Below are positions 52,759 to 62,109 of a stretch of 64,000 nt of DNA, piece after piece. The DNA comes from Gimesia benthica (GTDB taxonomy: Bacteria; Planctomycetota; Planctomycetia; Planctomycetales; Planctomycetaceae): NCBI RefSeq assembly GCF_009720525.1, contig NZ_CP043930.1, forward strand, positions 992,001 to 1,056,000, read 5' to 3'. How positions within the stretch are numbered: the first letter of the stretch is position 1; every line of letters starts with the position of its first letter. Both the position numbers and the translations under genes were made by a program. The notes under the pieces were generated by a model. It was given only the letters and a program-made list of their open reading frames with translations. It ran no database searches and was not told where the DNA came from.

Positions 52759-53112
52759 GGGGGCGATCGGATTCGACTGGTTCGCCGTATGTTAGGGTGG
52801 CGTGCCGTGGTTGATCAGTTGGCCACGTTAAAAGCTGATCACAACATAATTGCAAACAAGCAATTTTCAATGGCTGCTTAATTTAGCAACCCCGGCTTAG
52901 GAATCCCTGTCTGAGGAGTCCGAAGGCTGGTCACAAAATCAGACTGGCATCAGATCAATGTCCGCTCCGTCTGATGCGAGATTCGTGGTGGACTGGTTTC
53001 CGAAAGGCTTTGTTTGTTGTGCCCGAAGAAACGAGACTCAAACGATAAAATACGCACGTAGAGGCTTTAGCTGAGGGTTCACAGGACGCGGGTTCAATTC
53101 CCGCCGCCTCCA
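52759..53112 (+). ncRNA. ssrA: Transfer-messenger RNA (tmRNA)
   Basis: The 5' end GGGGGCG at 52759-52765 pairs with CGCCTCC at 53105-53111 to make the acceptor stem. A T-arm with GCGGG and CCCGC around TTCAATT precedes it. The tag reading frame runs 52834-52881 and encodes ADHNIIANKQFSMAA followed by TAA, so the tag ends in MAA rather than the common LAA. The CCA end is not encoded. It rescues stalled ribosomes together with SmpB. The 3' end is the insertion point of the island. Confidence 0.95.
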
Positions 53113-53116
53113 ATTT

Positions 53117-53151
53117 GGCCAATTTGCGAGAAATCGCAAGTTGGCCTTTTT
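53117..53151 (+). terminator. Terminator of ssrA
   Basis: GGCCAATTTGCGA at 53117-53129 pairs with TCGCAAGTTGGCC at 53134-53146 (one T-G pair) around a short GAAA loop, followed by five T. Confidence 0.9.
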
Positions 53152-53202
53152 CATTGATTTACGGCTAATCCCTTGATTTTCAAAGCTTTCCAGCGTTAAA
53201 TA

Positions 53203-53246
53203 GGTCCAATTAGAGGTCCAATTAAGCGGTTTCCTGGGTCCAATTA
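53203..53246. repeat. Three direct copies of GGTCCAATTA near the island's left end
   Basis: Copies at 53203-53212, 53215-53224 and 53237-53246, between the ssrA terminator and the integrase. They may be arm-type binding sites for the integrase. Confidence 0.6.
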
Positions 53247-53253
53247 GACGTTA

Positions 53254-55133
53254 GTGGATAGAGCTTCGGAGGTCGAAATCAGCCAGCCCAACGGAAAGAT
53301 CACGCGGCGGCACAGCCGTCAGAAATCGGGCCGAAACGGCGAAACCAAGGGGGAACGTTTTTTCCTTCAAGGTAAGCGGTGGCGGTTTCCCCGCGGTCTT
53401 ACCCATCAGGAAGTGCAAACGCGTATTTCGCGGCTTCGGGAGCTATGGAATGACCATGAGCGATTCCAACACGCTCAAGTCTTCATCACCCCAGGAATCG
53501 TGGAAACTCTCCCAGAATTTGCCCTGGAGGATGAAGCGAAGCGTTTCCGGAAATGGCAACTGACTGCAGAAACCTCTGTCAGCGACTCCGAACAGGGGTT
53601 ATCGTCTCACGGGTGGCCACCTTTCGGCAGCAGCGGGCGAAACGGCGGTGTAACTACGGGGGGAGCTGAAGCTGAATGGTCCCCCTGGCCTTATGGATTG
53701 CCGAGCAAATTAAAAAGGGCGTTCAACCCGTCCCACTACCGCCATTGCCCGAACTGCTGAAATCCATCTATCAGGAAGACCGCATTGATTACCGCTTTGG
53801 ACATATCGCCCAGCTGTTTTCGGGGCCTCCTGAGTCGCACCCACCAACGACTGGTGATTTACGCTGGCAGGATGCGTTCAAGCTGCTGAACCGACTGACG
53901 GAAGCCTATCCATCCGTGCCATGGACCATGTCGCAGCGTCAAGTTGAAGAAACGGCCCAGTTCCATGAACAGACAGCCAGAGAGGCAATCGCGACAACAG
54001 CAAAGGTCCGTTCACAGAAGTCCCCCGAAACGAAGATCCCGCTTATTTCAGGAACCTTTCATCAGGCCCTCAAAGAATACTCCAAGTATAGAAAAGCACA
54101 CTTTACCAAAGCTGGTGAGTTTGACGGTAGCGGCCACTACATGCTCGGTATGATTGAGAACTTTCAGAAACGACAACCTAACTTGCCCCTGGCAATACTG
54201 GACTTTACGCATTGCCAGGAAATTTATGACTTCTGGAGAAATCGTCCGCTGAACCTGAGAACAAACAAACCACTTTCCAAAAAGCACTGCTCCAGTCACA
54301 TCGGTGAACTCAAGAGATTCTTTATCTGGCTCCACACCTCAGACAAGTTTGCCTGGCGTCGACCTGAAGATTTTGACCTGATCGAGACCAAGGTCCAAAA
54401 ATTGCCCTCAGACCGACGGTCAATCCATGATATCGAAATTAAGACATTCAGCGTCGATCACCTTAAACTTTTATATAAGCACGCTCTGCCTGCACAGCGA
54501 CTCAAGATAGTATGGTGCCTCAACTGTGCCCATGGTGCGGCAGAAATTGGACGGGTCGAATGGGAAGACTTGTTTCTGAATCAGCCCCATCCATGGACAA
54601 ATGAAGGCCTTAAGATCACCAGCGACAATAATGATTCCTGGTGCGGACTGTTGCGGCCAAAGACAGACGTAGTCGGCTGGTGGTGGTTGTGGCCAGAGAC
54701 AGTTCAATTGATTCAGTGGTGGAAATCAGATCTTCAGCGACGAATTAAACGGGATCTTAAGTCGTCCGAACGAATCATGCTTACGGACAAAGGAGCAAAT
54801 CTGTATCGCGATTCATCCCGAAATGCCCAGTCATCATTTTCAAATGAATGGAGCCGCCTGCGGACACGCGTTGCTAAGGCGGAAGGTAAGGACGCGATAC
54901 CAAAACTTCCCTTTGGTACCCTTCGGGATCAGTTCAGCAACTGGCTCGGCAGTGACCAGAACCGGGCCGTGATCGCCAGCGTCGCATTGGCACATGGAAT
55001 CCCACACAAGGGCGACAAGCTGCTTTATAAGCACTACTCGAATCGCCCCTGGGCCCATCTCTTCGAAGCCCAAAAAGAATATCGTCAGGCTCTTCAGCCG
55101 ATGTTCGACGAAGTCACTACGCCAGCTACCTGA
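53254..55133 (+). pseudogene. Tyrosine recombinase (island integrase), split by a -1 frameshift
   Basis: The N-terminal part starts at a GTG at 53254 and contains the GERFFLQGKRWRFPRG and EVQTRISRLRELWNDHERF stretches seen in planctomycete integrases. It ends in frame at about 53685. The rest is in the -1 frame from 53676 and matches the integrase core: the helical N-domain, NCAHGAAEIGRVEWEDL (the usual arginine is not obvious) and LAHGIPHKGDKLLYKHY near the tyrosine. The switch lies at a run of five C at 53681-53685, where one added C or a -1 slip restores the frame. It may be a pseudogene, a programmed frameshift, or a base error. Confidence 0.75.
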
Positions 55134-55488
55134 CAGTCACTTCAGCAAGTAATTCGAGCTAACCTGGGGCAATCGGTGAATTCTCTCTCCTTTTGCTTCC
55201 TTTCAAGAGAATAATAATGGAACTTTGTCCCACTGAGCTCTAACTTCGAATGGAACATTTACGGTTCATCCCGACGGTAACATGAAGCCGTGGATTCCCA
55301 ATCCCGGACCAAGCCCGCCTCCCGAAGAAAATGGCAATACTCTTAAAAATTACGCATGCCCCCTGCTCTTTAACATGGTCAAATAACTGCAGACCTACCC
55401 GGGGACTTGTGATTGATATCTCGGTGTTCGGCTGGTTCAGTTAAACCCAAGACCATTGAGATTAAGTGACGTACAGAGAATAAAACCA
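55134..55488. other. Region between the integrase and the reverse transcriptase
   Basis: About 355 bases with no supported gene. It should carry what lies downstream of both convergent genes. A hairpin is at 55261-55291 (see the next entry). I looked for group II intron domain V and did not find it. Confidence 0.45.
55261..55291. other. Hairpin downstream of the reverse transcriptase
   Basis: ACGGTTCAT at 55261-55269 pairs with ATGAAGCCGT at 55282-55291 apart from one bulged base, with a 12-base loop. No T-run follows on either strand. It has a faint look of a group II domain V (AGCCGT ... ACGGTT) but the loop is not GAAA and the match is too weak to call. Confidence 0.4.
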
Positions 55489-56811
55489 CTATGTTGCAAC
55501 TTTAGCAACCTCCTGACTTTGCATCCACTCAGCTACATCCTTCTCAGCACGCTTCCCGAACTCCTGACCTCGCGACCATGCTTCATGGGCTTCTTCTGCA
55601 GTCAGAGGTGCCATATTAAGCCCAACGTGGGCGGCAAGCTGGCGAATCTGATCGGCCACAGCCGGAATAGCGGCTTCGTTGATGGCCATGGATTTCTGGA
55701 CCAGCCACTGGCAGCCTGATTGAGACACATCATGTTCCAGTCTGAGTTTGTTCTTTTTCAGTCTGGCCCTGATCTCCAGCAGAGAAGCTTGTAACTTGTC
55801 CCAGGCCGAATGCCCCAGTACTGCGTTCAGGTCGCTGTTATTGAGCTTGAGATTGAAGCCGAGCCATAGTACGTGATCATTGCTGGTGAGGTCATAGATG
55901 GCGTCATGCTGACTTTCTTTGACCTGAAGCCCAGCAGATTGAAGGCGTTGGCAGATGGCCCCGTACGCGTTGACAGCGTCTTGTTTCGTGTCGGCGAAAA
56001 CAGCGATGTCATCAGCATAGCGGACAAGAGTCGTGCCAGGGAATTGTTCGTTCCACCAGCGATCAAAGTAGTGATCGAGATAGACATTTAAACACAATGG
56101 CGACAGGCTTAGTCCTTGTGGAATCCCCCGCTTCCGTTTTCGGTCCAGAAGTTCTTCGATCAACCCTATGACAGGGGACTGGTGGAGACGTGATCGCAGG
56201 ATCTTAAGCAGTCGAGCCTTGGGAACTGATCCGAATGCGTCCTTGACGTCGCAGACGACCATATGGTGCTTCCCCTGATCCACCAATAATTTCGCCGCGG
56301 CGATGCCGTGAGCCAGTGATCGACTGGGACGAAAGCCGATGCTCAGGTCATAGAAATTCGGATCCAGCATCGGTGTAAGCAGCGTGCATAGGTTTCGGGA
56401 AAGGATGCGGCTCGAATCGTCGGGAATCTCGATAGTGCGGAAACCCTCTTTGCCAATTTTGGGAATCTTAGCCTTGCGGTATTTCCCCCGTCGAAAGCTA
56501 CCACTGAGAACTTCTTTCTGCAAATTACGCAGTTGATCCCAGGGAAACCAGTTTGGATCAGCTAATTCTGCAATATCGCCGAGCATTTCATACCGACCAA
56601 TTTTATTGATCGCAACGGCCAGCAGCCTGGGATTAGCAGCAGCCTTTAGCAGGCACTGGCAGTGTTCATGCATTCGTTTTTTCGCGGTGCGAGCCCACTG
56701 GTTGAGGTCTTCGTGGTACGACTTGATGGGGTCAACGAATTCGGATCGGTTACCGAGATAATCTCGTTGAAGGTAATTGTGGCGTAGTCTGGAAACGGAT
56801 TGATAGGGCAT
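55489..56811 (-). CDS. Stand-alone reverse transcriptase, group II-like
   Basis: A 440-residue reverse transcriptase. It has the motif chain of the group II-like enzymes: GFRTIEIPD, IGFRPSRSLAHGI, VVCDVKDAF (Asp188), RGIPQGLSLSPLCLNV (228-243), and the active-site RYADD with Asp267 and Asp268. The QG...SP motif argues against the SQ motif of diversity-generating retroelements. No HNH endonuclease and no maturase-like zinc end are seen, and no intron RNA is found around it. The N-terminal 100 residues are helical and unlike known partners. It may belong to the unassigned group II-like (G2L) or defence RT groups; the function is unknown. Confidence 0.9.
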   Translation of the reverse strand: MPYQSVSRLRHNYLQRDYLGNRSEFVDPIKSYHEDLNQWARTAKKRMHEHCQCLLKAAANPRLLAVAINKIGRYEMLGDIAELADPNWFPWDQLRNLQKEVLSGSFRRGKYRKAKIPKIGKEGFRTIEIPDDSSRILSRNLCTLLTPMLDPNFYDLSIGFRPSRSLAHGIAAAKLLVDQGKHHMVVCDVKDAFGSVPKARLLKILRSRLHQSPVIGLIEELLDRKRKRGIPQGLSLSPLCLNVYLDHYFDRWWNEQFPGTTLVRYADDIAVFADTKQDAVNAYGAICQRLQSAGLQVKESQHDAIYDLTSNDHVLWLGFNLKLNNSDLNAVLGHSAWDKLQASLLEIRARLKKNKLRLEHDVSQSGCQWLVQKSMAINEAAIPAVADQIRQLAAHVGLNMAPLTAEEAHEAWSRGQEFGKRAEKDVAEWMQSQEVAKVAT

Positions 56812-56846
56812 GTGTTGGGCCTTTCATGGAATGAATGAATTAAGAA

Positions 56847-56935
56847 CCGGGGCGGAGCAAGTCTACCCAGCCCCGGCTGAAAAAATGAGGTTACGGCGGT
56901 AGCCGAACTTATTAAGAAAGCGAGCCTTGGCCCGC
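56847..56935 (-). ncRNA. Candidate structured RNA upstream of the reverse transcriptase
   Basis: Three consecutive stem-loops read on the minus strand. Outer arms: GCGGGCC with GGCTCGC (56929-56935/56920-56926), GTTCGGC with GCCGTAAC around TACC (56890-56908), and CCGGGGC with GCCCCGG (56870-56876/56847-56853, 16-base loop). Retrons, and some other defence RTs, carry such a structured RNA just before the RT gene. No a1/a2 pair typical of retrons was found. Confidence 0.35.
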
Positions 56936-57440
56936 CTTCCTGTCTTCAGCTTCCCCTCGACCGGCCTAAACATGCCCAAAATAGTTAAGAGTAGGGATCA
57001 ACACATGGTCTAGAGAAAATGACCGGAAACAGATCCTGGTAGTTTTCATTCATTGGCTATGCGGATCGAGAGTAGATGGAGTCACCTGTGGTGTAATATT
57101 GTTGTTTTATCTTTTCCCTCTCCATCCAGGGAATGAATTGTCCTCCTTCTGTTAGGGTTAAAGTGGTTCCGGGATCAACAGATATTGCCTTTGTTCTTTC
57201 CTGCATCCCCTGTTCAGAAACTGTATTTCTCTTGTGGAACCGAATTCTCGAAAGAGAGCTCGGTGCCCGAGAAATTGTTCGAGTTGGGATGCTGATTTAT
57301 TCCTCGGTAGTCGTGTACTCCCGATGCGGATCTTGTGGATCGGCTTGAATAGGTCAGTGGGAAGGAATTAGGCAGAACTGGAAACATTCGTTTTCATTTC
57401 GCTTCATTGGGGCTCATTTGTTTTCGTGATCTTCTCAATT

Positions 57441-57458
57441 TAAATTCCGGATTTTAAA
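57441..57458. repeat. Left copy of an 18-bp inverted repeat
   Basis: TAAATTCCGGATTTTAAA here is the exact reverse complement of 59773-59790. It lies 16 bases beyond the stop of the RHH gene. Confidence 0.7.
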
Positions 57459-57474
57459 TTGATTCAAAATGATC

Positions 57475-57711
57475 TTACTTCTTTGGTGATTTCTTTCGTG
57501 TCATTTCGCGTTGGTAGAATCGCATTGTATCTTGTTCGGCCCGGTTCATGATCGCATCGTGCATAAAGTCGCTGATGGACATTTCACATTCGGCTGCTGC
57601 CATCTTGATGAGCTTGCGTTCTTTTGCTGACAGTTTGACTTTCAGGTAGACTTCTTTCTCGTTCTCCTGAGTGGTTGCACTTTTCTTCTTTGCCATTGGA
57701 TTCTCATTCAT
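57475..57711 (-). CDS. Ribbon-helix-helix protein
   Basis: A 78-residue basic protein. Residues about 23-60 fit a ribbon-helix-helix fold (VYLKVKLSAKERKLIKMAA, then MSISDFMHDAIMNRAEQ). It is probably a DNA-binding antitoxin, plasmid-type mobilisation accessory or repressor of this island. An inner ATG five codons downstream is also possible. It is divergent from the primase-like gene, so it may regulate the shared promoter region. No toxin gene is adjacent that I recognise. Confidence 0.7.
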   Translation of the reverse strand: MNENPMAKKKSATTQENEKEVYLKVKLSAKERKLIKMAAAECEMSISDFMHDAIMNRAEQDTMRFYQREMTRKKSPKK

Positions 57712-57874
57712 ATATCATTGTTTGTCATGCGGCCAGAACACCCATATGGGGTGTGTTGACCAATTCGTTTTTCATGATACAATTTCAACCTGAGCAGTCA
57801 ACGGCAAAATCACCAGTTCCGTTAGGAAGGCCCAACGAGTGGGCTCACGCACCACTTGTTTCAGGGTTTTCAAT

Positions 57875-58582
57875 ATGACCAGACCTGAGAGCGAATACGA
57901 TTCGCATGCTTCTCACAATAATGGGCCTGCAAGCCAAACCGAAAGGAAGGATAACCGCCTCAACTACAGTGCAAGAAAATTTCTGCAATTTGTTCATGCC
58001 CCTGGGAGCATTATCCAGGTTTTCGTCAAGGAGGTGGACTTCCTACCTAACGGAAACCTCATCGGTTTCTATGACTTGGATCACCTGAATGAGCTTGCGG
58101 AGGATGTGAAGCAACATTCAGGCCAAGCCACTGCAATCTTCTACAGCTTGAACCCAGTCACACCATCTTGCCATAACCGGGCGAAGAACTGCCTGAAACC
58201 AGGCTCAGATACTCAACCAGCAAAGAAATCAGACATTCAGTGTCGACATTTAATGCTGATCGACATTGACCCTGTACGCGATTCAGACTGTTCGGCGACG
58301 GATGTTGAGAAAGAAGTTGCCTACTGGGTCGGGCGGATTGTGTCGCGTGATCTGAGAAAGGCGGGCTGGTCCAGACCGGTTGCGGTCGATTCGGGTATCG
58401 GTAACCAGATCCTGATATTGTGTGGCCTGAATTTACAGAATGCAGTCATTACAGAATCCATGGCCTGCTCTCATAAGGCTGCGAAGACTGGTAGCCCTGG
58501 CTGTGGCTTTTCCGGAAGGATGGTAACGCATTTACGCCGGAACAGATTGAAGTTCCCCAGCAGGTTCCAACAACAAGTATAA
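57875..58582 (+). pseudogene. Truncated primase-like (AEP) gene
   Basis: The sequence has the N-terminal motifs of the archaeo-eukaryotic-type primase family found on many islands: AIFYSLNPVTPSCHNRAKN, DIQCRHLMLIDIDPVRD (the DxD metal motif) and VAVDSGIGNQILILCGLNL. After the last of these the family pattern is lost and the frame runs on with unrelated residues to a stop at 58582. Normal members are far longer. The gene ends two bases before the Mrr gene, so a deletion or insertion at the junction is likely. A GTG at 57839 could also start it. Confidence 0.7.
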
Positions 58583-58584
58583 TT

Positions 58585-59490
58585 TCAATCTTCAATAAAA
58601 TAATCGGAATCAATCCGCTTAATGAAATATGACTGAGCTGTACTCACACCGACATTGAAGTCAATCATAAGCTGAGCGAGACGGTTGCCATCTATCAACA
58701 CAACTTTGGGATCAATTGTCTCAACATATTGATGAGCATCACGGGAGAACGTGCTGGTCGTCAGAAACACGCCTTTCCTGGCCCGTTTACCATGTAAGGC
58801 ACCTACAAACTTCTGAATCTCGGGTCTTCCGACCTGGTTTTCCCATCTTTTGGCCTGCAGATAGACAATATCCAGTCCGAGTTGATCTTCATTTATTACA
58901 CCATCAATACCTTCATCGGCACCGGCAACGGTTAATGAACCTGCGGTATCCTGAGAGCCTCCGTACCCCATGGCAAGCATCAGATCCAGCACAAGCTTTT
59001 CAAAAAAGACCGGAGTCATTCGTTTCACTTGGTAAATTAAATCTGCTGCCAAATCTTCACGTATTTGCTTGTATGCAGTCTGTAATGCTTCTTCTGGTGT
59101 CTCTATCTCAGTCTTCTTCTCGACTGTGGTCTCATCATCATTTTTATCACGTGACTTAAAGTCTCTAAACTCATCAAATTGGAGTAAGAATGATTGATCA
59201 ATTCGATCTACTGAGGAATTTAATACTTCACGACCACGGTCTGTTATTGTGAATTGACCTCGAGTGACCGTTTCCAATAATCCAGCACGCTCCATATAGG
59301 TCTTGGCCCAAGCGACACGGTTATGGAAAACAGTTTGCTGTCCGCTCGGCAACAACTTATGTCGCTCTTCATCAGAGAGCTCAAGATAATCCGCCAAGGT
59401 ATCTTTCAATATGCGAACTGTATGAATTTTTCCATCAGAAATATGTTTTAAAAGCGGTAGCATAATGGTTTGAAAGTCGGGGATTGTCAC
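58585..59490 (-). CDS. Mrr-type restriction endonuclease
   Basis: The N-terminal 90 residues fit the winged-helix Mrr_N domain. The C-terminal part (about 150-275) has the Mrr catalytic core: MGYGGSQDTAG, GADEGIDGVI (Asp), then LDIVYLQAKRW, the D-x(n)-QxK site. These type IV-like enzymes cut methylated DNA and act in phage defence. The length of 301 is normal. The coding sequence is AT-richer than the core genes. It converges with the truncated primase with a 2-base gap. Confidence 0.92.
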   Translation of the reverse strand: MTIPDFQTIMLPLLKHISDGKIHTVRILKDTLADYLELSDEERHKLLPSGQQTVFHNRVAWAKTYMERAGLLETVTRGQFTITDRGREVLNSSVDRIDQSFLLQFDEFRDFKSRDKNDDETTVEKKTEIETPEEALQTAYKQIREDLAADLIYQVKRMTPVFFEKLVLDLMLAMGYGGSQDTAGSLTVAGADEGIDGVINEDQLGLDIVYLQAKRWENQVGRPEIQKFVGALHGKRARKGVFLTTSTFSRDAHQYVETIDPKVVLIDGNRLAQLMIDFNVGVSTAQSYFIKRIDSDYFIED

Positions 59491-60158
59491 GGTTGGCCCA
59501 GTCTACTATTTCGAAAGAGATGCGATTCGACCTTGTTCAATTATCACAGGCATAAGTATTGTCGCTCCACACTCACAATCAAGGTTATGTAGTGCTGTGA
59601 TTCTGCTGCCACGACAACAATATCACTACGTTTATGGCTTTATTCTGAACAATATCCCACTTAGCTGGTCTGAGCACAACAATAAACAGAACGAGACACC
59701 GCAATAATCAAAAATCGACCGCCTGTTTAATCGCCTGCGGGATCTTCAATGTGATTCCCCCCCCTCCATATATTTAAAATCCGGAATTTATATATTTCAC
59801 CAACCAGAAGCCAGGATCAAGTAGATCATGAATCGTTACAACATCGGTAAGCAGATCCTGAAAATGTATAGCCCGACGTCACCACACGGAGACGTTGCAG
59901 AAGTCAGCTGACCGCCCCAGCATCAATTGTGTTGCTGACCAGGAAGCGAGAGCTCTGATTCACAGCCCTACAAAAACCTCTCCAATAATCACAGTCGGTT
60001 TACGGCAACCTCCCTGGCGAGCCATAATCTCCGCCTGAAGCCGGTGGCTGCTCCAGCGGTGCCGGAGGGCCTCCCGGGTAAGCAGATCACGCCCCTGCCC
60101 TTCGGGCCAAGTGATGTTGCTCTAACGACCATCGTTTTTTGCCAGCAACCGGGGACTC
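59491..60158. other. Gene-poor region upstream of Mrr
   Basis: About 670 bases. It holds the right copy of the inverted repeat (59773-59790). A 27-codon frame (59828-59911, MNRYNIGKQI...) and a proline-rich frame near 59990-60165 share the short GGTAAGCAGATC with each other. These look like decayed gene pieces; I cannot support a gene. Confidence 0.45.
59773..59790. repeat. Right copy of the 18-bp inverted repeat
   Basis: TTTAAAATCCGGAATTTA, the exact reverse complement of the copy at 57441-57458. The two flank the RHH gene, the broken primase and Mrr. Confidence 0.7.
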
Positions 60159-60500
60159 ATGGTATACAGTCAGACTAAAGAATCGAAAAAAACCAACAGT
60201 CAGACGACGGCACCAATCTATCCGATCGGCTGTCTGAGGGGTTTAAAAGACAGTGGACATGGCCTCCATCTTGAAGCTGGATGGCTTCCACAAATGCAAG
60301 AAGTTCTTGTTCTAATAGAAGTTACCAACTCCCAGAGTCACGAGTCATTTGTAACCGATATGTTTCTCTTACGTCATTCACAGAACCAACCGAATGAAGT
60401 TTTGGCCCTATACCATTTTGAGCCCTGTATACAAAAACGGAAGGTCCTTAATTTGACTTTTTGTAATCGTCGACGCCGTATTGACGCATTTTTGAAATGA
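60159..60500 (+). CDS. Hypothetical small protein, possibly a gene remnant
   Basis: A 113-residue frame from the ATG at 60159. It has no family pattern I recognise. Its last 60 codons are related in DNA to an inverted, frameshifted stretch at 62110-62320 on the other side of the first paralog, which suggests a real conserved segment (ALYHFEP in both). The start has no good ribosome site. Confidence 0.35.
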   Translation: MVYSQTKESKKTNSQTTAPIYPIGCLRGLKDSGHGLHLEAGWLPQMQEVLVLIEVTNSQSHESFVTDMFLLRHSQNQPNEVLALYHFEPCIQKRKVLNLTFCNRRRRIDAFLK

Positions 60501-60581
60501 TTGTATCCGTTCGATACGGATTTTGTCTGTTTACGAAGACGAACCACACGATCGGCTATGTCTTCCTGAAATTCATTCGGC

Positions 60582-61739
60582 TCATTCATCTCGCCAGGAT
60601 CTGGCAGTTGGATTGAGTAAACTCCCCATTTCAACGAATCGCGATTTATGGATTTCCTGATTATTTTGGCCCCTTTGCCGTACCTGTGGCACACCATTTT
60701 CATGAAACCACTTCACCAGTGGTAACCATTCTTCAGCTCGTTCATTATCTCGAACATGATTCTTCACGAGCGAAAGCATTTTATTCTTATCAGTTTTCGG
60801 AAGTTTGCAGTTGAGGAGCAGCCCATGCTCAGGGGTGCCGTTGTATCCAGGTGGTAGAAATGTCTTGGCTACTACATATTGACCATCATATTCAATTGGG
60901 CAATATCCCAGGCGATACTCGAAGCAGTCGTCGTCCGAGTCGTAATTCTGCTCTCCCAAAATTCCTTCCACATACACTTCGTGCGTGAAATAGATCGAAC
61001 TCCCGCAGGCCCTGAAGAGAACAACGGCAGGTTGATTGTCGTGCAAAGTTGTCAATTCAACCCGTGGTACGTACGCTACAAATCGAACAATATCCATCAG
61101 GTCTGAAACGTGCGTTCTCCATCTGGGAGCGATTCGCTCACAGACCCGCTCTAGAGCATGCGTAGTGAAAACAAGATGCTTCGTGCCCTCCGCAACCTCA
61201 AGAGATGGAGTGTTCAATCCAAAATGAATATTTCCCTGCAAGGTCTTCTGAGAGATCACTCTCTGACAATTCAAAAAAATGATCTTATCTTTTGGCTGAA
61301 TGATAAAGTAATTGTGAGGCATGAACCGGTTCTTAATGCTTTCAGGGATCAGTGAGTAGATAGCCTGCGAAAGTCTATTTTGTTCTTCCTGTAGCCAGGC
61401 GTCCCCAGCATTGGGGTTAAATTCCGCACGTTCCTCGTTCACAATTTCGCATAATGTTTCAAATGTGTGGAAGCCACAATGAGCCACACAATTCCAAGTC
61501 TTTTTGTCGAGGCTGTCAAAGAACTTGGTATCCTCAAAGTTGACTTTCTGGGCAGCAGAGTAAACCGCATCAGTGAATTCAGGGGCTGCCGTACAACCCG
61601 ATGCGACCTTGAATTTCGGGAAGCGACTGCCTCGTTTCCATTGATCCTTGCGAACTGCATCCTGTTTTTGACGCTTACGACGCCTGAGTTCCTTTCGCTT
61701 TTTCTTTTGATGGCGTTTAACTGACTTTGTACCCGGCAT
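60582..61739 (-). CDS. Unknown island protein, paralog A
   Basis: A 385-residue protein of unknown function. It starts with a strongly basic stretch (about residues 7-38, Lys/Arg-rich) that could bind nucleic acid. The conserved middle has FTTHALERVCERIAPRW, and later RLGYCPIEYDGQYVVAK and TFLPPGYNGTPE. The pattern HAxER...ERI recalls the small BECR-fold toxins (RelE/DUF4258 group), but this is only a hint. The ATG at 61739 follows GGAGG. It is the downstream copy of a tandem pair; its leader is duplicated as well. Confidence 0.75.
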   Translation of the reverse strand: MPGTKSVKRHQKKKRKELRRRKRQKQDAVRKDQWKRGSRFPKFKVASGCTAAPEFTDAVYSAAQKVNFEDTKFFDSLDKKTWNCVAHCGFHTFETLCEIVNEERAEFNPNAGDAWLQEEQNRLSQAIYSLIPESIKNRFMPHNYFIIQPKDKIIFLNCQRVISQKTLQGNIHFGLNTPSLEVAEGTKHLVFTTHALERVCERIAPRWRTHVSDLMDIVRFVAYVPRVELTTLHDNQPAVVLFRACGSSIYFTHEVYVEGILGEQNYDSDDDCFEYRLGYCPIEYDGQYVVAKTFLPPGYNGTPEHGLLLNCKLPKTDKNKMLSLVKNHVRDNERAEEWLPLVKWFHENGVPQVRQRGQNNQEIHKSRFVEMGSLLNPTARSWRDE

Positions 61740-62045
61740 TGATTTGCCTCCGCTTCTGTTAATGGATACTTGAAAATCCCTGAGTTGCTCTCTGTCGAAC
61801 GAGCCTGTGAATTGCTCCTGGGACTCACTCTATGCATATCGAACCGGCGTAACACAAACTGGCTTCGGTTAGGGAATCCGTGGCAGCAAAACAAGGGCGA
61901 CTTGAGGATGCTGCCTGAAACGTTAAAAAGCCGCCTGCAGACGAGTCTGCGGCGGCTTTGGAGTTATTAACACTGGAACCAACCCAACCAGACGTGTCGG
62001 CCATATCAGCCTCCTACGGACTGATACTTATCAGTCGCGATCACC
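61740..62045 (-). repeat. Leader copy of the tandem pair, first copy
   Basis: The 300 bases upstream of paralog A are clearly similar to 63577-63882 upstream of paralog B, including the ribosome site region, two hairpins and the stretch TCCTGGGACTCACTCTATGC. Confidence 0.85.
61925..61957 (-). terminator. Terminator-like hairpin upstream of paralog A
   Basis: On the minus strand AGCCGCC with GGCGGCT and an inner GCAGAC/TCTGC pairing form a stem with one bulge, followed by five T. The same hairpin lies upstream of paralog B, where it fits as the terminator of the preceding gene. Confidence 0.75.
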
Positions 62046-62109
62046 TATAATCATTCCCAAAAAACATCGTAAAAGTGTCCATGATTGTCAAAAAGCCTAA
62101 TTAAGATTC

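Follow-up and report, generated by a model that had tools for sequence, protein, structure and literature searches.

Reverse transcriptases (RTs) of planctomycetes that resemble those of group II introns and lack a ribozyme carry the name G2L5 (Simon and Zimmerly 2008, cited in PMC4244168, PMC4424553, and PMC8934634). The accessible portions of these papers give Gimesia maris and Blastopirellula marina as hosts and describe three sequences, for which they give no supported clade and no function, RNA, or cassette. G2L5 was dropped from one tree as inconsistent, and a conserved maturase domain is stated for G2L3-5, in the accessible text of PMC4244168, which also gives YIDD as the active site of the G2L4 RT; the available part of a 2015 review lists the role of G2L5 as unknown (PMC4424553). 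According to the accessible description of myRT, two Gimesia maris members of G2L5 fall into different classes, and one Gimesia maris member is without the maturase (GIIM) domain and 33% identical to the group II RT YP_552148.1 (PMC8934634). Among the defence-associated RTs, DRT10 (UG17) and DRT9 combine an RT with a structured noncoding RNA (ncRNA) and are found in islands, and the template of DRT9 is a poly-U tract (PMC12632851, accessible part).

The RT gene considered here lies in an island of Gimesia benthica, within a 64,000-nucleotide stretch that was analysed as a whole and is called the window. A sequence-only reading had described it as a stand-alone group II-like RT with all catalytic motifs and no endonuclease, maturase end, or intron, preceded by three hairpins, situated near an Mrr gene, and a candidate for an undescribed system. 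The RT stands behind a gene of the ribbon-helix-helix (RHH) type and a structured leader in five genomes, and RT and leader are therefore probably an enzyme-plus-RNA unit rather than a broken intron. The features of the window locus are as follows.

52759..53112, plus strand: tmRNA (ssrA), the presumed integration site
53254..55133, plus strand: tyrosine-recombinase-like gene, recognised by eye, with no Pfam match above cut-off
55489..56811, minus strand: stand-alone RT gene with YADD, 440 aa, RT domain at residues 116-321
56812..57474, minus strand: noncoding leader between the RHH gene and the RT, a candidate ncRNA
56845-56878, minus strand: hairpin HP3, 9 + 5 pairs with a 4-nt loop, ending 33 nt before the RT start
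56879..56889, minus strand: U-rich linker between HP2 and HP3, a putative template
56890-56908, minus strand: hairpin HP2 with a GGCU(A)CCGCC apical motif, its outer pairs covarying
56914-56940, minus strand: hairpin HP1, present in the window and, with a bulge, in genome G414 only
57435..57462, minus strand: near-palindrome, 12 nt 3' of the stop codon of the RHH gene
57475..57711, minus strand: small RHH-type (NikA-like) gene, 78 aa
57839..58582, plus strand: open reading frame (ORF) sharing 467 nt with an 871-aa frame of genome G415, primase-like by eye, with no family match
58585..59490, minus strand: Mrr-type restriction endonuclease gene (Pfam), an island neighbour

The RT frame is intact, its translation contains the active site YADD, and Pfam places RVT_1 over residues 116-321 (3.2e-28) and no further family at E ≤ 0.001. 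The GIIM maturase domain has no Pfam match in the protein and no endonuclease domain was found in it, as the sequence-only reading had said. The catalytic motifs are kept among homologues at 44-55% identity, and the C-terminal part of the protein is common to its RT lineage. An AlphaFold2 model built with one relative in the alignment reached a mean pLDDT of 36.5 and was discarded.

Four close homologues are 92% (G414, from the same genus as the window genome), 55% (G744, from another family), 44% (G428, from the same family as the window genome), and 44% (G912) identical to the window RT, and between G428 and G912 the identity is 62%. In our genome samples, which overlap, RT relatives occur at E ≤ 1e-25 in eight of 392 genomes of the phylum and in 11 of 170 genomes of the family (three of the 11 carrying the subfamily), and at E ≤ 1e-45 with alignment A2 in 16 of 397 genomes of the class, the window genome being counted each time; in the family of G744, alignment A4 finds them at E ≤ 1e-60 in two of 241 genomes, G744 included. 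The window genome itself holds four weaker RT matches and no close paralogue. No relative was found in the viral contigs scanned, and a collection of genome contigs had no match to the single RT protein, and alignment A2 retrieved the G428 record alone from it. Among the 20 plasmid matches listed, which are annotated as group II RTs or carry no annotation, identity to the window RT is at most 32.5%, on plasmid 2 of Polaromonas sp. JS666; the leader has no match on plasmids. The protein YP_552148.1, named above, is presumably also one of Polaromonas sp. JS666.

The relationship of these RTs was placed in a tree of 48 rows, which is midpoint-rooted, has two long-branched rows, and contains no labelled UG, DGR, or G2L4 rows. 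The five RTs form one clade (100/100) inside a planctomycete lineage of 21 rows (99/94), the neighbouring clade (91/79) consists of group II, RT-Cas1, and small-RT rows, and four retron-like rows make up a separate clade (100/100). The group II labels come from TIGR04416 matches and record annotation, with an intron detected in locus L012 only, and TIGR04416 at E ≤ 1e-20 matches 28 of the 33 rows of alignment A7, lineage rows among them. A profile made from 15 rows of alignment A3 gives lineage rows, including rows outside the training set, at least 304 bits and the best other RT 204.7 bits. The best matches of A3 in a PDB profile search are group II RTs (GsI-IIC, 189.5 bits; LtrA, 125.1 bits), which bears out the term group II-like and would also suit a decayed or unrecognised group II intron; the NCBIfam model group_II_RT_mat gives the window RT 141.9 bits against a cut-off of 300. 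Such an intron is highly improbable, given the missing GIIM match, the position of the RT outside the group II and RT-Cas1 rows, and the Rfam searches, in which no group II intron RNA was found in the 64-kb window at gathering score and lax filters over 54900-58600 produced a single unrelated match (E 3.4). Of 13 comparison loci, one (L012) did yield intron parts in the same kind of search, which is thus able to detect group II introns.

On the window RT, retron_St85 reaches 54 bits against a cut-off of 235, the Drt9 model 47.9 bits, and RT_UG17 79.2 bits; an affinity to UG17/UG26 was set aside as unspecific, since another group II-like RT of the same genome scores 147.9 bits on RT_UG17. At the window locus, neither a fusion of the RT to Cas1 nor a repeat array adjoining it was found. 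No direct repeats of at least 25 nt were found in 53100-62100 in a search that gapped or poorly matching pairs could escape, and hence no template/variable repeat pair of the kind that marks a DGR. As a separate observation, retron_St85-like RTs (E ≤ 1e-35) are present in 93 of 148 genomes of the class, that of the window genome lying at 2489475-2490332, and exceed the curated cut-off in 0 of 148.

Some RTs of the planctomycete lineage carry RNase H (Pfam, 3.3e-35 in L024). RT-RNase H fusions lie at 1421-3331 of L024, 9095-10984 of L029, and 8522-10420 of L030, and in L062, where the RT frame is on the minus strand; ribonuclease HI was found in four of 15 rows of A3 and one of 33 rows of A7, was seen by eye only in L026-L028, and has no Pfam match in L007. 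A partner protein of about 500 aa and of no known family is encoded upstream of the fusions in L024, L029, L030, and L062. Its profile, built from seven loci and run on 32, also found the partner in L028, L032, L056, L058, L060, L061, L062, and L063 and weakly in L035 and L059, on the strand opposite the RT in L060 and L059, and had no match in L031, L033, L057, the window, L022, L023, L055, and L076. A ParB-like gene was recognised by eye in L029, L030, and L032, the RT of L032 showing no RNase H. In the tree, the RT-RNase H and partner loci are represented by rows L007, L009, L015, L016, L019, and L049. The five subfamily RTs have neither RNase H nor the partner. Another RT of this lineage in the window genome (1217225-1218100; L031 9297-10139) has YVDN in place of YADD and, judged by this motif, is probably inactive.

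The order RHH-type gene, noncoding leader, RT, all in one orientation, is the same in all five subfamily loci. The noncoding stretch measures 663 nt in the window, 689 nt in G414, 698 nt in G428, 628 nt in G912, and 536 nt in G744, where no ATG is present and the count runs to a CTG codon placed by homology. The RHH protein matches the NikA-like family of Pfam above cut-off in the window and below it in G428, G744, and G415, a further genome of the window genome's genus; the small upstream protein of G912 has no Pfam match and aligns at 36% with its G428 counterpart. The RHH proteins of G428 and G744 are 66% alike, those of window/G414 and G744 only 38% over 39 aa. The core of the near-palindrome at the end of the RHH gene is similar in G414, G428, G744, and G912 and overlaps the RHH stop codon in the last three, and without gaps its symmetric positions pair at 13 of 14 places in the window, 15 of 15 in G428, 12 of 15 in G744, and 9 of 16 in G912.

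The three hairpins noted in the sequence-only reading do stand directly upstream of the RT. The 111 nt of 56830-56940 have a folding energy of -48.5 kcal/mol (z -5.1), which 0 of 200 shuffled sequences reach, and five of 2378 windows of 110 nt between 52 and 64 kb, a count over overlapping windows on both strands that includes 56830-56940 itself, are as stable. The Mrr gene has another very stable fold some 500 nt upstream of it, at 59991-60110 on the minus strand (-50.4 kcal/mol per 110 nt). Between HP2 and HP3, the linker contains U6 in the window and U10 in G744 and is A/U-rich in G428 and G912.

The conservation on which the sequence-only reading depends extends to G744 for HP2 and HP3 and not for HP1. 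Window and G414 differ at 0 of 77 positions of the HP2/HP3 stretch, and G744 keeps both hairpins with changes. In G414, one arm of HP1 is lengthened by an insertion of 2 nt; no counterpart was seen in G744, and HP1 is not part of the conserved core. HP3 aligns in the window, G414, and G744 only, and G428 and G912 have a different long hairpin in its place. For HP2, four distinct lineages were aligned by hand with the loop as anchor; six of seven pairs are standard in all four and the seventh in two, and four pairs have compensatory changes on both sides. The GGCU(A)CCGCC apex of HP2 occurs once in each of the five leaders, a count that is no independent test because the motif was chosen from these same leaders. 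A covariance model of HP2-HP3 from the window, G414, and G744 (R1), run over 473 kb from 27 sources, has no matches at E < 1e-3 apart from the three leaders on which it was built, and matches one place in the window genome below E 0.1; it misses the leaders of G428 and G912, so that hairpin homology in these two is argued from position, the leader-derived motif, and the hand alignment. A GGCUCCGCC hairpin was tried as a marker of the whole lineage and rejected, as 20 of its 25 matches in the 473 kb lie outside the five leaders, several of them in GC-rich loci or inside coding sequence. The 125-nt leaders have z values of -4.1 (window), -2.7 (G414), -5.5 (G744), -2.2 (G428), and -2.5 (G912), and windows of equal stability in their own loci number 2 of 994, 4 of 844, 67 of 994, 9 of 544, and 542 of 944, respectively, so stability alone is commonplace in the G744 and G912 loci.

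Hairpins at this position could also act in cis, as an attenuator, a protein-binding site, or a translational control element in a 5' UTR, with the RT copying some other RNA. In favour of regulation, each of the five loci has 32-41 nt between the end of its last hairpin and the start of the RT, HP3 resembles a terminator in being rich in GC and in the UUCUU that comes after it, and a near-palindrome marks the end of the RHH-type gene upstream. A consensus terminator scan, however, listed neither HP3 nor HP2, and the leaders of the window and G744 can be aligned by eye through much of a noncoding stretch of 536-663 nt, which is longer than a usual attenuator. We consider regulation in cis rather unlikely and nevertheless a serious rival to an RT-RNA defence unit.

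The window RT is intact and under purifying selection. In comparison with G414, dN/dS is 0.19 over codons 236-440, and codons 1-235 hold six changes. Divergence between the two is 10.8% in the 3' half of the RT gene and the DNA downstream, 0.9% in its 5' half, 0% in the hairpin stretch, and 3.9% in the chromosome left of ssrA. Mutagenesis of the DGR type in the 3' half was considered and rejected, the substitutions being without A bias and mostly at third positions. In G428 (L023 9759-10058), a scrap resembling the C-terminus of a window-type RT (41 residues at 63%) lies behind a different RT. From these patterns, RT alleles seem to have been exchanged at the island site.

The surroundings of the RT are those of an integrative element. 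At four of the five loci (window, G414, G428, and G744), the RT and the tmRNA are 2.4 to 3.9 kb apart, with recombinase-type genes between the two; for G912, no tmRNA was found in the 19 kb of L076, and a short repeat search with the tmRNA tail gave no convincing attR. The recombinase of G428 is a Pfam Phage_integrase, and that of the window, G414, and G744 belongs to a long family without a Pfam match that is tyrosine recombinase-like by eye and is split into two overlapping frames in the window and read as one frame in G414. In G428 and G744, the integrase, HTH_17 (xis-like), and RHH-type genes adjoin the RT. The genome G415 has an RHH gene at 83% and the beginning of the leader, here 72% identical, has no RT match at E ≤ 1e-25, and shows the order integrase (Phage_integrase, 2.9e-10), HTH_17 gene, RHH gene, and an 871-aa open frame. 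We take this frame to be primase-like by eye, from its motifs; it has no primase match in Pfam or PDB sequences. A 467-nt piece of it recurs in the window at 57929-58395 (84%) in inverted orientation, and this piece and the G415 layout make an int-xis-RHH-(RT)-primase-like element the most likely carrier of the RT. Eight residues in the upstream part of the G415 frame equal motif A of the G744 RT, a resemblance that weakly suggests a deleted RT.

Apart from the Mrr gene, which the sequence-only reading had reported, inspection of the island by eye shows ORFs that look like DUF262 and type I restriction genes. Next to the five RTs, no gene could be recognised as an effector. An ORF of about 280 aa with a CPWCF motif, plasmid Rep-like by eye, is common to the islands of window/G414, G744, and G912 (L022 15085-15915, where it has no Pfam match; L076 11636-12445; L055 13141-13578, shorter; window from about 63825 to the end).

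An RT in such a setting might serve the mobile element itself and not defence, helping an integrative plasmid-like element to replicate, spread, stay intact, or control its copy number. This would fit the integrase, HTH_17, and RHH-type genes that adjoin the RT in G428 and G744 or the primase-like frame in G415, the ssrA position of four of five loci, and the shared Rep-like ORF. Against it, G415 keeps integrase, HTH_17, RHH, and primase-like frame without an RT, so the element does not need one, and the window genome has no second copy of the subfamily and thus no sign of retrotransposition. Element maintenance is unlikely on this evidence, and we still count it as a serious rival. A domesticated group II-like RT could alternatively act in DNA repair, as the G2L4 RT does, whose role in double-strand-break repair is published in the literature accessible in part. 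The window RT shares with it a stand-alone form and a group II-like profile. A general repair enzyme would not be expected to have a conserved structured leader, though, and an island location, a patchy presence (11 of the 170 family genomes, three with the subfamily), and YADD where G2L4 has YIDD (PMC4244168, accessible text) likewise speak against this role, which we regard as improbable.

The reading that we favour, tentatively and with somewhat less than even confidence, is that the RT and the 3' leader form one RT-RNA unit that copies part of the leader and is used against phages or rival elements. We infer that the leader is transcribed, and it would yield a structured RNA of HP2, the U-rich linker, and HP3, perhaps with upstream parts. 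The RT would bind this RNA and copy part of it into cDNA, the copied part probably being the U-rich linker. The unit would be carried by the int-xis-RHH-primase-like element, usually at ssrA, and would most likely serve element or host against phages or rival elements, like the ncRNA-templated DRT9 and DRT10 (PMC12632851, accessible part). It draws on the intact RT with its catalytic motifs, the constant gene order of the cassette, the pairing of HP2, the specificity of R1 for its three leaders, the similar spacing of the last hairpin, the hairpin stretch that is unchanged between window and G414, and the contents of the island. Speaking against it are the two leaders that R1 misses, the weaker z values in G428 and G912, the low likeness of the window and G744 RHH proteins, the want of a recognised effector gene, and the RT-free element of G415.

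A broader proposal, which is possible and on balance doubtful, is a planctomycete class of RNA-templated RT systems that would comprise the RT-RNase H/partner loci and compact forms, the latter using cDNA from the inter-hairpin linker as a weapon against phages or other elements. Its compact form, put forward with similar hesitation as a part of this class, would consist of the RHH-type gene, a structured ncRNA, and the RT on int-xis-primase-like elements at ssrA, and its cDNA might be a poly-A or repeat product. With its conserved leader and cassette, one branch of the group II-like RTs of planctomycetes becomes an RT-RNA unit that can be tested, and a second lead comes from the RT-RNase H fusions of the same lineage, to which a partner gene is linked. 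Should the leader be the template, a planctomycete branch would be added to the ncRNA-templated RT systems outside the well-studied UG families.

Among known systems, retrons are set apart by the tree, in which the retron-like rows cluster away from the window RT. The group II intron RTs GsI-IIC and LtrA are the closest solved structures by profile, and the window RT differs from such RTs in its separate clade and in having no intron RNA found and no maturase match. The loci with RT-RNase H and the partner of about 500 aa (L024-L030, L034, and L062) belong to the same lineage, and for one (L027) the setting is likewise an ssrA island, with the tmRNA 7.4 kb away; they have RNase H and partner, and the subfamily has neither. 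DRT10 (UG17) differs from the window RT, which has no SLATT gene among the neighbour ORFs scanned with Pfam (a sub-threshold SLATT_4 match, E 0.08, falls inside the G428 integrase) and which scores lower on the UG17 model than another RT of its genome. With DRT9, the window locus shares a U-rich stretch, its linker recalling the poly-U template described in the accessible part of PMC12632851. G2L5, known here by description only, is likewise planctomycete, group II-like, and without a ribozyme, as none was found for the window RT, and the absence of GIIM sets the window RT against the maturase domain stated for G2L3-5 (PMC4244168, accessible text). The RTs themselves are not an entirely undescribed kind, since planctomycete group II-like RTs already have this name; the accessible literature gives G2L5 no function, RNA, or stable clade. 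In mostly openly accessible literature on G2L5, Gimesia RTs, planctomycete RT-RNase H, and RTs in ssrA islands, a description of the cassette or leader was not recognised. Judged by description, the window RT subfamily may be G2L5 material.
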